Source: Candidatus Zixiibacteriota bacterium (GTDB lineage: Bacteria; Zixibacteria; MSB-5A5; GN15; FEB-12). From it: 33,694 nt of DNA. Location of the stretch: NCBI GenBank assembly GCA_020348905.1, contig CP070756.1, positions 2,803,675 to 2,837,368 of the forward strand. The letters run 5' to 3'. Within the stretch, counting starts at the first letter, position 1. Every line of letters starts with the position of its first letter. Position numbers and translations under genes: made by a program. The notes under the pieces are model-generated. The model saw only the letters and a program-made list of their open reading frames with translations, was not told where the DNA came from and did no database searches. Below, piece after piece: positions 11,522 to 21,654 of this stretch.

Positions 11522-13606
11522 CTATTCTTCGCCGTCAGTCCGCCGGTTAGCCTTAAACTTGATCTGGGTGATTCTGGTAAGCAGCGCCAGCAGCGTCACC
11601 CCCAGGATGAAAATTATCGTCACCGTGGGCCAACCGATTTTCAAGAACTTCACTTCGAATTTATAAAGGCCGAACAGAACCACCAGAACCGCGATGAACA
11701 GGGCATAGAACTGCATCGAGCCGGTCTGCATAAAGCGCAGGATGTTTGCTCCCTGCCTGACCACCCATCCGCAGCCGTTAACGGCGCCGTCGACGATCCA
11801 GGTATCGAACCATTCTTTGATATCAGACCACTTGATTGTCAGCCAGCCGGTACCATTGACCGCTCCGTCGATCACGTTGGCATCGAACTTCCACATTAAG
11901 CCGGCGAACGCCATCACCGGATCGATGACGACCTTCTGGTATATTTCATCGAAGTAATACTTGTTGTAGAGAAGCTTATACAGCCCTTTGAATTTCTCCG
12001 CCATAGCGTCGGCCGAGATTGACTTCTTGTAATACATAAGGTAGGCCAGGTAGATACCGCTCAGTCCGACTATCAATGAAATGGCCATGAGCAGATAGTT
12101 GGCGTGCGGCTCATACGCCTCACCGTGATAAACGAACGTCGCAAAGCCCTTATGGATCCATGGCAATCCAACCCAGCCGGCGCATATCGAAAGCACCGCC
12201 AGAAATACCAGCGGATAGGTCATGTTCTTTGGCGACTCATGGGCGTGGTCGAAGCGATGCTGATCGCGCGGCTCGCCAAAGAAGGTCAAGAAGCACAGAC
12301 GCCACATATAGAACGCCGTCATAAAGGCAATGGCCAGAGTACCGATCAGGAAAATCGGATAGTGTGAGGCGGCTGCAACAATCTCATCTTTGGACCAGAA
12401 TCCCGAAAGCGGGAAAATACCGGCTATCGAAAGCGAAGCTATCATGAAAGTGGGCGCGGTGAGCTTCATCTTGCGAGCCAGTCCGCCCATCTCCTGAATG
12501 TCATTGGTGTGCACCGCGTGGATAACCGATCCGGCGCCAAGGAATAACAGCCCTTTGAAAAAGGCGTGCGTCATAAGGTGGAACGTACCGGCATAGAACC
12601 CGGGTGAGTGATGTCCCTGAGCAGTGTCATACCCGTAGAGACCCAGGGCCATAATCATGTATCCCAGCTGGCTGACAGTCGAATAGGCCAGAATTCGTTT
12701 GATATCGTTTTGAACCAGACCAATCGAGGCCGCCATAAACGAGGTAATCAGACCGATGATGGCCACTACCAGGGAAGCTTCGGCCGAGGTAACAAACAAG
12801 GGCATCGACCGGGCCACCAAATACACACCGGCGGCAACCATCGTTGCGGCGTGAATCAATGCCGAAACCGGTGTCGGACCTTCCATGGCGTCGGGTAGCC
12901 AGACGTGCAACGGCCACTGGGCCGATTTACCGACCGCGCCGCAGAAAACAAATATCGCGGCCGCCGTAAGTATGCCTGCCGGAATCACCCCCGAGCCGGC
13001 GATTTCGAAAACCCCGCCGTAATTGAACGTCCCGAAATAAATGCCGATCATAAACAGCCCGACCAGAAAACCCAGATCACCCACACGGGTAGTAATAAAC
13101 GCTTTCTTGCAGGCATCGGCGGCGGATTTCTTTTCAAACCAGAAGCCAATAAGCAGATATGACGTCAGTCCCACCAGCTCCCAGAAGATAAATATCATAA
13201 AGAAGTTGTTGGCGACCACCAGCCCCAGCATAGAGAACAAGAACAATGACAGATAGGCGAAGAAGCGGCTGAAACGCGGGTCGTTATGCATGTATCCGAC
13301 CGAATAGATCTCGACACAGGCACCAACCGTGGTAACGACCACCAGCATCACGGCCGTCAGTGGATCCACCAGGGTACCAATCTCGAGTACAAAGTTGGGC
13401 AGGTTGACGAACTTATAAGCCCACTGGAAAGGTTCATCGATGCGTCCGAGGGTCTCGATGAGAATTACCACCGACATCACCCACGCCGCCAAAATCATGG
13501 CGATAGACAGAAGCGCCGAGAACATCTCTTTCCAGCGCGTAAAGAATACGATCATGATGAACGCGAACAACGGCAGAAGCGGAATCAAGAACGTGTATTC
13601 GGTCAT
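11522..13606 (-). CDS. nuoL: NADH-quinone oxidoreductase subunit L
   Basis: The 694-residue distal antiporter-like subunit has E143 in FWELVGLTSYLLIGFW, K227 in AVGKSAQWPLHVWLPDAMEGPTP and the HAATMVAAGVY helix. The C-terminal part would form the long lateral helix that runs along the membrane arm, followed by a final membrane segment. In that region DGAVNG occurs twice (residues 580-585 and 606-611, 26 residues apart), and the surrounding sequence is partly repeated. The length exceeds the E. coli protein (613), mostly because of this C-terminal region. It is preceded by nuoK nine bases upstream. Stop codon TAG. Confidence 0.96.
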   Translation of the reverse strand: MTEYTFLIPLLPLFAFIMIVFFTRWKEMFSALLSIAMILAAWVMSVVILIETLGRIDEPFQWAYKFVNLPNFVLEIGTLVDPLTAVMLVVVTTVGACVEIYSVGYMHNDPRFSRFFAYLSLFLFSMLGLVVANNFFMIFIFWELVGLTSYLLIGFWFEKKSAADACKKAFITTRVGDLGFLVGLFMIGIYFGTFNYGGVFEIAGSGVIPAGILTAAAIFVFCGAVGKSAQWPLHVWLPDAMEGPTPVSALIHAATMVAAGVYLVARSMPLFVTSAEASLVVAIIGLITSFMAASIGLVQNDIKRILAYSTVSQLGYMIMALGLYGYDTAQGHHSPGFYAGTFHLMTHAFFKGLLFLGAGSVIHAVHTNDIQEMGGLARKMKLTAPTFMIASLSIAGIFPLSGFWSKDEIVAAASHYPIFLIGTLAIAFMTAFYMWRLCFLTFFGEPRDQHRFDHAHESPKNMTYPLVFLAVLSICAGWVGLPWIHKGFATFVYHGEAYEPHANYLLMAISLIVGLSGIYLAYLMYYKKSISADAMAEKFKGLYKLLYNKYYFDEIYQKVVIDPVMAFAGLMWKFDANVIDGAVNGTGWLTIKWSDIKEWFDTWIVDGAVNGCGWVVRQGANILRFMQTGSMQFYALFIAVLVVLFGLYKFEVKFLKIGWPTVTIIFILGVTLLALLTRITQIKFKANRRTDGEE

Positions 13607-17712: not shown

Positions 17713-18225
17713 CTACTTCTCCTGCCAGTCGCTAAGTTTCTGGCGACGAATCTTCTCCGAAAGATGCAGGCACCCCTCCATCAACGACTCCGGCCGCGGA
17801 GGACAGCCGGGGATATAGATGTCCACCGGCACGATGTGGTCGATGCCCTTTTCGACGGCGTAGCTATCGTAGTAGAAAGGGCCGCCCTTGATGGTGCAGC
17901 CGCCCATCGCGATGACGTAGCGCGGCTCGGCCATCTGGTCATAGAGCTTGCGCAAGCGCGGAGCCATCTTCTTGGTAATGGTCCCGGCGGCAATGATAAG
18001 GTCGGACTGCCTGGGGGAAGCGCGGAATATCATCCCCAGACGGTCAAAATCATAACGGGAAGCGCCGGTGCACATAAGCTCGATCGCGCAGCAGGCAGTG
18101 CCAAAGAGTAAATACCACAGAGATTTCGCCTGCGCAAAATGCAAAACCGACTCTAAAGATGTCGTAACGATGGCGCCACCCGGAATTTTCTCAGAGTAAT
18201 AAGGAAGCTTCTTGATCAGACCCAC
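17713..18225 (-). CDS. nuoB: NADH-quinone oxidoreductase subunit B (cluster N2)
   Basis: The 170-residue PSST-type subunit holds the last iron-sulfur cluster (N2) before quinone. All four ligands are present: C45 and C46 (tandem), C110 in GGCTIKGG, and C141 in [10 protein letters not shown]. The length is short and standard. It overlaps the end of nuoA by ten bases. The presence of N2 shows that the quinone-reducing module is complete even though the NADH module is absent. Confidence 0.96.
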
Positions 18226-18569
18226 TTCAAAGCTCCCTTTCTCCAGGCATAGAAAATGCCAAAGAACAGAATCAGTATAAATATTACCATCTCAACCAGG
18301 GCGTAAAGTCCAAGCTGGCCAAACGCCACCGCCCAGGGAAACAAGAAGACCACCTCGACATCGAAGACGACAAAAATCAGGGCGAATATGTAGAAGCGGT
18401 TGTTGAACTTTATCCACGAGGTACCGATGGGATTTTCGCCGCACTCGTCATTGATGTTCTTTTCGGGATAATGGTTGAATGGTCTGAAAACCCGGGACAG
18501 CAGGAAGGTAAAAAGAACGATTCCGATACCGGCAAAGATGAAAATTAAAACTGCCAAATACTCAGTCAT
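18216..18569 (-). CDS. nuoA: NADH-quinone oxidoreductase subunit A
   Basis: The 117-residue, three-helix membrane subunit has the conserved loop [25 protein letters not shown] shortened here as [10 protein letters not shown] then [25 protein letters not shown]-type helix 2 with its buried Asp/Glu. The Cys in ECG is the loop residue that reports on the active/deactive state in other complexes. It is the first gene of the nuo operon. Only a weak purine stretch precedes the ATG. An inverted repeat lies 15 bases upstream. Confidence 0.94.
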
Positions 18570-18830: not shown

Positions 18831-20075
18831 TTACTCGGCGGTCCGTTCGATCTGTCGGATCTTAAGGTACAGTGCAACCACAAGAATAGTAATAAAGAGA
18901 GTGGCAAATCCCAGCCCTTTCCGCCGAAAATGGTACTCATCGATCAATGCCGCTGAATTGGCTACGACGGAATCGGCCTTGTTGATGCCCTCGGCCGCCT
19001 TCGAGGCAACGGAGTCGGCATTGAAGGCGTGAACGAGGGTTTTGGCCTGGATCAGAGCCTGAGACACCTCCTTAAAGCGAAACTCTTCGTCGGTGGTCAT
19101 CATACCCTTGTCAATCGCTTCGGAAAGAACGGAATCGGCCCGACGGTGGGCGGTGATAAGCTGGCCAATGGCATCGGCCATTGCCGAAGCGGTTTCAAAT
19201 GCGGCCGTGCCGTCATCGGCGCTGTGGCACTCGACACAAATGGCTTTCTCGTCGATCCCCACCATACCTTCGTGGGGCTTGATAATCCTGTGATTGGAGT
19301 GGCAGCTCTCGCACATGGGGTACTCATTTTCGTCAAAAGCCGGTTTATGGGGTGAGCCATTGAAGAGGTCGGCTTCGATAGCATGGCAGTTGCCACAAAC
19401 CGCCGAGAGGGAGTTGAAACCGGGCGGGGCGGCACCGTGATTACTGTGACAGTCGTTGCAGGCTGGGGCTCCCAGATCGTTCTGCTCGAGCAACGCAATG
19501 CCATGAACAGAAGCCTTGTAATCCTCGACCTGCGACGTGGGAATTCGATATTCTCGCATATACTCAGGATCGGAGTGACACTTTCCACAGGTCTCGATGA
19601 GGTTAACCGGGTGCGTACTCGAATGAGGCATCTTGGCATCGCCAATCTCGTGCACGCTGTGGCAGGAAACGCAATTGGCGACCTTCGTATCATTCTTGGT
19701 GAGCAGAAGAATCCCGTGAACCGAGGTACGGTACTTGTCCAATTGATCGGTGGGCAGTGAGGGATTATGCCCTCGCATATAGGCAGCATCACTATGACAC
19801 CGGGCGCAGAATTGCGGTACCTGAGTATGCGACGGTATTCCCCGGTAATCGCTTACCTTACGAACATCATCCATCTCTTCCTATGATGCTTCGCAGCCGT
19901 GTCAATCGACACAGCCAAGACCTTTCTGGGCGTGAATGTGCGGCGCGATCATGTGCGAAGGCCCATCCTCGTCTTCGAAGTCGTAATGGCAACTGAAGCA
20001 GTTGTCCTCAGCCGCTACCCCGAATGGTGCGGCCAGAAGAACAGTGGAGACAGTAATCAGCGCGCGAAACAACAT
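18831..20075 (-). CDS. Periplasmic multiheme cytochrome c, frame interrupted by in-frame TGA and TAG
   Basis: Uninterrupted translation runs only from the ATG at 19874 (347 residues), but that product has no export signal. The same frame extends upstream to an ATG at 20075: signal peptide (residues 1-22), heme motif CFSCH (26-30), then C55-V-D-TGA58-H59 where the TGA replaces the second heme cysteine, then TAG at codon 65. After these come seven CXXCH motifs (CARCH, CVSCH, CGKCH, CNDCH, CGNCH, CESCH, CVECH, starting at full-frame residues 90, 135, 163, 206, 227, 255, 280), a helical region, and a C-terminal membrane anchor (about residues 389-405). Eight intact sites plus one altered. It follows cytochrome b by eight bases and would replace cytochrome c1 as electron acceptor of that complex. 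It is either recoded, a pseudogene, or miscalled in sequence; a decision is not possible from sequence alone. Confidence 0.75.
19859..19895 (-). other. Stem-loop directly behind the in-frame TGA (SECIS-like)
   Basis: Counting bases after the TGA (19902-19904), bases 7-19 pair with 32-43: TGCGAA and TTCGTA (one G-T pair) plus CATCAT and ATGATG, with one bulged G at base 13. The loop is 12 bases (AGGAAGAGATGG) and has G at its second and third positions, 19 bases from the TGA to the loop. The published bacterial SECIS pattern asks for a loop of about 3-14 bases, a G in its first two positions, and 16-37 bases to the UGA; all are met. The loop also contains the TAG codon and the ATG at 19874. 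Confidence 0.45.
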
Positions 20076-20083
20076 GGCTTTGT

Positions 20084-21202
20084 TTACTCCAAAATATACC
20101 CGAGCGCCGTCATCGCTATAATAAAGGCCAGCACGAGCCAGCCGAAAGCCATTAAGTAAGAGGCTTTCCGATTGCCTGCCTTACGATCCACGAAAGGCAC
20201 CAGGGTCCAGATAACACCACCAATCGTGAACACGATAATTCCGAACAACTCACCTTCAATAAACAGAACGTGCGCGGGAAGCATCTTAAGGGCCTGGAAA
20301 GCGAACATGAAATACCATTCCGGACGGATGACCTCCGGCGGCGGGGCAAACGGGTCGGCTTTTGTCCCCAGCGGCCAGTGAACGGCCCCAATGCCGTCCG
20401 GAAAAAGCACGGCCAAAATGGCCAGTACATTCAGCGCAATCAGCCAGACGAGAAGGTCTCGCAGGAGAAAACTCGGGAAGAATCTTTGATATTGCTTGTC
20501 CTTTTCCGTCCTGCCCTGCCATGATATCGGCTCACTCATACCCTGACGCTGGATGAAAACCAGGTGCGCTGCCAGCAGAACAGTAAAAAGGCCGGGTAGA
20601 ATAGCCACGTGGAGGCCGAAAAAGCGCCCGATTGTAGCCCCCGTTACCTCTTCCCCACCCCGCATGACGATCATCAGGTCATCGCCGATGATTGGAATTG
20701 CCCCGGCCATACCCGTTCCCACCCGGGTGGCAAAAAAGGCCAGTTCGTTCCATGGAAGCAGGTAACCGGAAAAGCCAAACATCAGGGCCAGACCGAGCAG
20801 ACCGATCCCGGTAAGCCAGGTCAGTTCGCGTGGTCTACGATAAGCGTAGGTGAAAAACACCGTGAACATGTGTACGAACACAGCCAGAATCATCAGATTG
20901 GCCGACCATGAGTGTACGGATCTCACCAGCCAGCCAAACTGGACGTTAGCCACGATAAACCGCACCGATTCATACGCCGAATCGGCGCCGGGACGATAGT
21001 ACATAAGCAGCAAGATGCCTGTCACAACCTGGACCACAAACAGGAAAAGCGAAATTCCGCCAAAGTAGTAAAAAATGGAATGGCCGTGGACGGGGACTTT
21101 CTTGTCACCCATATATTCGACCAGGGCATCGATTTTGAAGCGTTCGTTGACCCAGCCGTAGAGTGAATCGAAAAATCCTGACCCGGTTGGCTTTGTCGCC
21201 AT
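20084..21202 (-). CDS. Cytochrome b (fused b6/subunit IV type) of a Rieske/cyt b complex
   Basis: The 372-residue integral membrane protein of about eight helices has two heme pairs: H97-x13-H111 and H198-x14-H213. The 14-residue spacing of the second pair is that of cytochrome b6, rather than 13 as in mitochondrial cytochrome b. The Qo-site motif PEWY is at 294-297, and the C-terminal subunit-IV-like half is fused in the same chain. It oxidises quinol with the Rieske protein. The gene starts at the A of the Rieske stop codon (TGATG), so it is coupled to it. Stop TAA, then eight bases to the multiheme cytochrome start. Confidence 0.94.
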   Translation of the reverse strand: MATKPTGSGFFDSLYGWVNERFKIDALVEYMGDKKVPVHGHSIFYYFGGISLFLFVVQVVTGILLLMYYRPGADSAYESVRFIVANVQFGWLVRSVHSWSANLMILAVFVHMFTVFFTYAYRRPRELTWLTGIGLLGLALMFGFSGYLLPWNELAFFATRVGTGMAGAIPIIGDDLMIVMRGGEEVTGATIGRFFGLHVAILPGLFTVLLAAHLVFIQRQGMSEPISWQGRTEKDKQYQRFFPSFLLRDLLVWLIALNVLAILAVLFPDGIGAVHWPLGTKADPFAPPPEVIRPEWYFMFAFQALKMLPAHVLFIEGELFGIIVFTIGGVIWTLVPFVDRKAGNRKASYLMAFGWLVLAFIIAMTALGYILE

Positions 21203-21654
21203 CAGCTTTCCTCCCGGCTGACAAAAATCGCACCCTCGGCCTCTTTGACCGAATAAGCGGCCAGCGGCTTCGGAGGTGGTCCGGAAATATTCTTGCCGTC
21301 AAGATCGTATCGTCCATTGTGGCAGGAACACCAGATAATCCCCAGATCCGGCCGGTGCTGTACTGTACAGTCGAGGTGGGTGCAGGTGGCCGCCAGGGCT
21401 TTCAACTCACCCTGCTCGGTCTGGTAAATTATCCCCAACTCCCGTCCGTACTTGAAGTACTTCGCTTTCTTCGGATCGGCCTCGATATCGTCACGAATGA
21501 AGGACAGTTTCAGCTGCGACAGCTTCGCCTCACCGGCTGCCGGCGGTATGATAAACCTGACGATGGGATAAAAAACGGCACCCAGCGTAGCCAGAACGCT
21601 ACCACCGAGTATAAGCTCCAGAAACCCCCGTCGAGTCGACTTATTGTTGTTCAC
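21202..21654 (-). CDS. Rieske 2Fe-2S protein of a quinol-oxidising complex
   Basis: The 150-residue protein has a twin-arginine type N-terminus (STRRGFLELI, residues 6-15) and a membrane segment (about 17-37). The Rieske cluster motifs are C91-T-H93-L-D-C96 and C109-S-C111-H112: C91, H93, C109 and H112 bind the cluster, while C96 and C111 form the disulfide. The tail with GPPPKPL is the usual proline loop. Start is GTG at 21654, with GGAGG four bases upstream. It is the first gene of the Rieske/cytochrome b/multiheme c unit and lies behind a near-consensus promoter. Confidence 0.94.
   Translation of the reverse strand: MNNNKSTRRGFLELILGGSVLATLGAVFYPIVRFIIPPAAGEAKLSQLKLSFIRDDIEADPKKAKYFKYGRELGIIYQTEQGELKALAATCTHLDCTVQHRPDLGIIWCSCHNGRYDLDGKNISGPPPKPLAAYSVKEAEGAIFVSREES

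Follow-up and report, generated by a model that had tools for sequence, protein, structure and literature searches.

Two in-frame stop codons at a heme site of a Zixibacteriota multiheme cytochrome gene point to a damaged sequence patch and do not support selenocysteine

Introduction

The evidence does not support a selenocysteine (Sec) holding heme in the cytochrome analyzed here, and the CXXUH feature predicted from its in-frame TGA appears not to be real. The gene is found in the window, i.e., the whole stretch of 33,694 nucleotides of Candidatus Zixiibacteriota bacterium (GCA_020348905.1, contig CP070756.1) that was analyzed. Its TGA and a following TAG lie together in one short patch of clustered substitutions, for which a local consensus or assembly error is the moderately favored cause. 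A selenol at a heme-attachment site, if true, would be a new cofactor linkage, and the candidate was therefore worth testing.

Results

Gene layout and genomic context

By translation of positions 20075 to 18831, a frame running from ATG 20075 to TAA 18831 was found with exactly two internal stops (Table 1). The read-through product consists of 414 residues and has an export signal, nine CXXCH positions, and a C-terminal membrane helix. The CXXCH positions start at residues 26, 55, 90, 135, 163, 206, 227, 255, and 280; eight are intact and the one at residue 55 is interrupted. The signal peptide and the C-terminal helix were judged by eye from the sequence. By the same inspection, no signal peptide was found in the downstream ORF starting at ATG 19874, and the upstream part of the frame supplies one.

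The preliminary description had stated that a single frame leads from ATG 20075 through an intact CFSCH motif into the multiheme ORF with only two interruptions, and that the TGA falls exactly on the second Cys of a CXXCH motif with the TAG seven codons later. Both statements were confirmed by translation. Its further statement, that the downstream cytochrome has no export signal of its own and that the upstream part provides it, agrees with our inspection by eye. The alignment of 29 same-order homologues along the read-through frame indicates that the upstream and downstream parts are one gene and not a chance adjacency.

Table 1. Features of the cytochrome locus in the window
Feature	Position	Strand	Basis
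Read-through frame, nonaheme c-type cytochrome	18831..20075	-	Motifs; homologues open across the same frame
In-frame TGA, residue 58, second Cys of heme motif 2 (C-V-D-*-H)	19902..19904	-	Translation; Cys in 71/71 homologues
In-frame TAG, residue 65	19881..19883	-	Translation; Leu, Ser, Lys, Ala, and others in homologues, with no stop in any
Downstream ORF, 347 aa, seven intact CXXCH	18831..19874	-	Pfam Paired_CXXCH_1, Cytochrome_C7, Cytochrom_c3_2
Clustered-substitution patch, residues 45-67, both stops inside	19875..19943	-	69 nt; conserved-column comparison
Weak hairpin following the TGA, not credible as a SECIS	19859..19895	-	Fold: MFE -10.7 kcal/mol, z -1.38, 12-nt purine-rich loop
Cytochrome b of Rieske/cytochrome b complex, directly upstream of the cytochrome	20084..21202	-	PF00033, PF13631, PF00032
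Rieske iron-sulfur protein	21202..21654	-	PF00355; weaker TM_PetC match
NuoA, first gene of the downstream complex I operon	18216..18569	-	Neighbor kept in many relatives

A cytochrome b gene adjoins the cytochrome gene at all 29 order-level loci and at most of the more distant loci, and a NuoA homologue stands beside it in the loci of many relatives. In the window, the cytochrome b, Rieske, and nuo genes are intact. From its place beside the Rieske and cytochrome b genes, and from the multiple CXXCH motifs, export signal, and membrane anchor of its product, the broken gene is predicted to be the nonaheme cytochrome c subunit of a putative quinol-oxidising Rieske/cytochrome b complex. Cytochrome c subunits beside Rieske/cytochrome b genes of Zixibacteriota, Acidobacteriota, Ignavibacteria, Aminicenantes, and others show the same gene order. 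Within the order, these subunits share 49-74% full-length identity, the heme-motif layout, and the C-terminal membrane helix, and the window copy differs from them only by the patch with two stops.

In NuoL (window 11522-13606), a lineage-specific substitution cluster was observed at residues of about 47-69 (10/20 positions conserved in both sisters). This cluster may be natural loop variation.

Homologues at the two stop sites

The cytochrome gene was present in 76 of 132 class genomes and in all four genus genomes. Among the 76 class-level genomes having the gene, only the window copy showed an internal TGA plus TAG. The preliminary description had proposed an alignment of homologues at codons 58 and 65. 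At codon 58 the answer was uniform: every one of the 71 distinct homologue sequences that span it, those of three sister species from the genus among them, has Cys, and none has TGA. Codon 65 was variable, and never a stop. The three sister species (71-74% identity) have an unbroken ORF that reads CVDCHGGD or CVECHGGD at the site. The 29 same-order homologues are single ORFs that include the N-terminal part, with no internal stop at either site.

No close paralogue of the cytochrome was found in the window's genome, where the next match had E = 3e-15. In one homologue (G085, L308), TAA replaces Lys at residue 126 of an otherwise normal copy; this stop has no connection with heme or Sec.

Clustered substitutions

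Compared with the family consensus, the patch shows R45P, D46H, C58*, G61C, D62E, L65*, and D67E. All inferred changes are substitutions and the frame is preserved; between its two halves, the patch has 33 bases that appear normal. Columns shared by at least 95% of the 29 homologues were taken as conserved, i.e., 109 columns in total, ten of them within residues 45-67. All four departures from conserved columns lay at residues 46-67, inside the interval 45-67, and 0/99 columns deviated outside (hypergeometric P = 3.8e-5, a value which is somewhat optimistic because the interval was picked after the deviations were seen). By an interval-scanning permutation test, the falling of seven residues absent from all homologues in 45-67 had p = 0.007.

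Outside the patch, pN to the sisters was 0.17-0.19, compared with a sister-to-sister pN of 0.17-0.21, and pS was near 0.73-0.80. This part of the gene is under normal purifying selection and is as constrained as in the sisters. Relaxed constraint along the gene, as is looked for in pseudogenes, was not found outside the patch, and these values are still compatible with a very young pseudogene. The substitution pattern fits an event confined to the patch and does not fit gradual decay.

A second copy of the patch was sought in the genome and none was found, and no sign of gene conversion or of a chimera from a repeat was seen. Other lineage-specific clusters were uninformative about error patches, as variable-loop clusters occurred in all three genomes and two sisters are too few.

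Selenocysteine machinery and decoding of the stops

A check for selA, selB, selC, and selD had been proposed, and all were found, selD in part. The window's genome (G000) encodes full-length SelB, tRNA-Sec, SelA (516 bits), and most of SelD; a scaffold gap of 100 N (L322:7455-7554; G000:C1:2497455-2497554) takes the place of the selD N-terminal region in which the Sec site is expected. Missing machinery is thus not the ground against Sec.

PylS had no match in the window's genome and its sisters (G000-G003), in a search whose reach was restricted by N gaps in the assembly. Among the tRNAs found, a set that is incomplete owing to gaps, none had a CUA anticodon, and the UCA anticodon occurred in tRNA-Sec alone. 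TAG ends 209 of 694 long ORFs of the genome (30%), which bears out the earlier remark that it is a normal stop for many genes here. The accompanying remark, that simple Sec insertion would still stop after six residues, also holds, as the position of the TAG was confirmed and PylS was not found.

A genome-wide scan for TGY-N6-TGA-CAY gave 110-124 matches per genome in the window's genome and the sisters alike, and the pattern alone is therefore uninformative. A scan of read-through ORFs over 1.23 Mb revealed no new selenoprotein; antisense shadow frames, and then ordinary gene ends, dominated. Molybdopterin oxidoreductases were sought as SECIS controls, and no TGA copy was present in the window's genome.

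SECIS comparison

The bacterial SECIS model has a loop of 3-9 nt with G in the first two positions, lies 16-37 nt from the UGA, and has an MFE of at most -7.5 (PMC13188914). The cytochrome hairpin fails this model by its loop of 12 nt. Among 1,200 Cys codons sampled from the long ORFs of the genome, 47% folded as well as the cytochrome site and 22% satisfied the model.

In this Zixibacteriota group, selD is a TGA selenoprotein gene (C-A-G-U), and the TGA is kept in five related genomes. As a positive control, selD of four related genomes was folded; three gave a SECIS-type hairpin with a GUU or GGU loop, and the fourth did not pass. The cytochrome is like selD, which occurs in Sec-competent genomes of the same genus and family, in that its TGA is placed three residues past a Cys. 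However, the TGA of selD is conserved in relatives and is followed, in three of the four copies folded, by the GUU/GGU-loop hairpin, whereas the cytochrome has neither, its hairpin showing no apical loop of this G-U type.

A SECIS built by the patch mutations themselves was also considered and rejected. The hairpin positions U10 and A15, which derive from G61C and D62E, do pair, and the overall fold is at background.

Assembly quality

The window's genome is a single 3.27 Mb pseudo-chromosome. The 1.23 Mb sampled contained 103 N runs, almost all of exactly 100 N, i.e., roughly 12 kb per contig joined by 100-N gaps. Its completeness is 80.65%, and in such a fragmented pseudo-chromosome a thin, poorly supported stretch is plausible. 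Several amino acids are not represented among the tRNAs found, presumably due to the N gaps. The sister genomes G001 and G003 also contain 100-N joins.

Against an error, the window contains no gaps, and about 13.7 kb separate the patch from the nearer window end. In about 180 orthologue alignments over 1.23 Mb, only two further breaks were detected besides the cytochrome, a clear internal stop and a frameshift-like one. ORFs are as long as in the sisters, and errors are not widespread in the assembly.

A second broken gene of the window's genome encodes a counterpart of a large G001 protein (56% identity) and has an in-frame TAA for Tyr (L237:3610, G000:C1 about 443610, minus strand). At L216:11638-19001 (G000:C1 about 2271600-2279000), three or more paralogues of a protein of roughly 767 residues were found in tandem, one of which has a frameshift-like break near L216:13528.

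Discussion

The insertion of Sec at the TGA by the selA/selB/selC/selD system, giving a CXXUH heme site, is favored by the presence of the machinery and by the precise fall of the TGA on a Cys. There is also precedent, as two Sec-containing multiheme cytochromes are listed in a recent review, i.e., ExtKL (NF040886) and the tetrathionate reductase family octaheme cytochrome TIGR04315 (PMC13188914). The window cytochrome resembles these two in being a multiheme c-type protein whose gene has an in-frame TGA and whose host is Sec-competent, whereas it has no match to NF040886 or TIGR04315, no SECIS, no TGA homologue, and a second stop. Among the features looked for in a selenoprotein gene, the machinery and Cys homologues are thus present, and a SECIS, TGA homologues, and an open frame past the TGA are not. 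Because residue 58 is Cys in every homologue, the hairpin is at background and unlike the selD SECIS, and the TAG, a common stop for which PylS was not found, would block read-through, Sec decoding is rejected with high confidence. Such insertion is very improbable on the sequence evidence, and the candidate selenocysteine cytochrome of the preliminary description is not supported. An elaborated version, in which an unusual SECIS and an unrecognised UAG suppressor would yield a full-length cytochrome with a thioether/selenoether heme at heme 2, is the least probable reading considered.

Division into two genes by design, i.e., an exported mini-cytochrome of 57-64 residues and a re-initiated 347-aa cytochrome from ATG 19874, would be physically possible, as this ATG lies six bases after the TAG. 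However, without a signal peptide, the 347-aa product could not have its heme sites matured in the periplasm. The homologues, moreover, are one fused ORF, and the patch changes invariant residues besides adding stops. This arrangement is scarcely credible, even less so than Sec insertion by the known system.

The other possibility named in the preliminary description, i.e., a broken gene or a base-call error, is supported, with sequence error ranked first and a genuine lesion second. The frame and its homology are real; that error rather than mutation altered the patch we infer with somewhat better than even confidence. A local consensus or assembly error in this fragmented metagenome-assembled genome would have altered the 69 nt by substitutions only, creating the TGA and TAG and changing other conserved residues. 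For example, a single read of low quality or foreign origin may have spanned a stretch of thin coverage. Under this explanation, the cell itself would carry an intact gene with an ordinary heme-2 CXXCH site. The reasons for ranking error before a genuine lesion are the intact partner genes, the retention of the cytochrome in all genomes of the genus, and the lack of a close paralogue.

A genuine lesion is a tentative second explanation, less likely than error. A recent clustered mutation, by error-prone repair or similar, would have left a young pseudogene and a weakened Rieske/cytochrome b complex. The low general error rate of the assembly speaks for it, as do nonsense lesions elsewhere, i.e., the TAA at residue 126 of the G085 homologue and the TAA for Tyr in another gene of the window's genome. 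However, a decaying pseudogene is expected to gather lesions along its length, and here the conserved columns outside the patch are all unchanged and constraint is normal. The retention of the gene across the genus and in much of the class, beside intact partner genes, also argues against it.

The outcome is mainly methodological. A TGA at a conserved Cys together with a working-looking Sec system is insufficient for a selenoprotein call. In this cytochrome, a damaged patch is indicated jointly by conservation, by comparison of the hairpin with the SECIS of a real selenoprotein from this group, and by the way in which substitutions are distributed locally.
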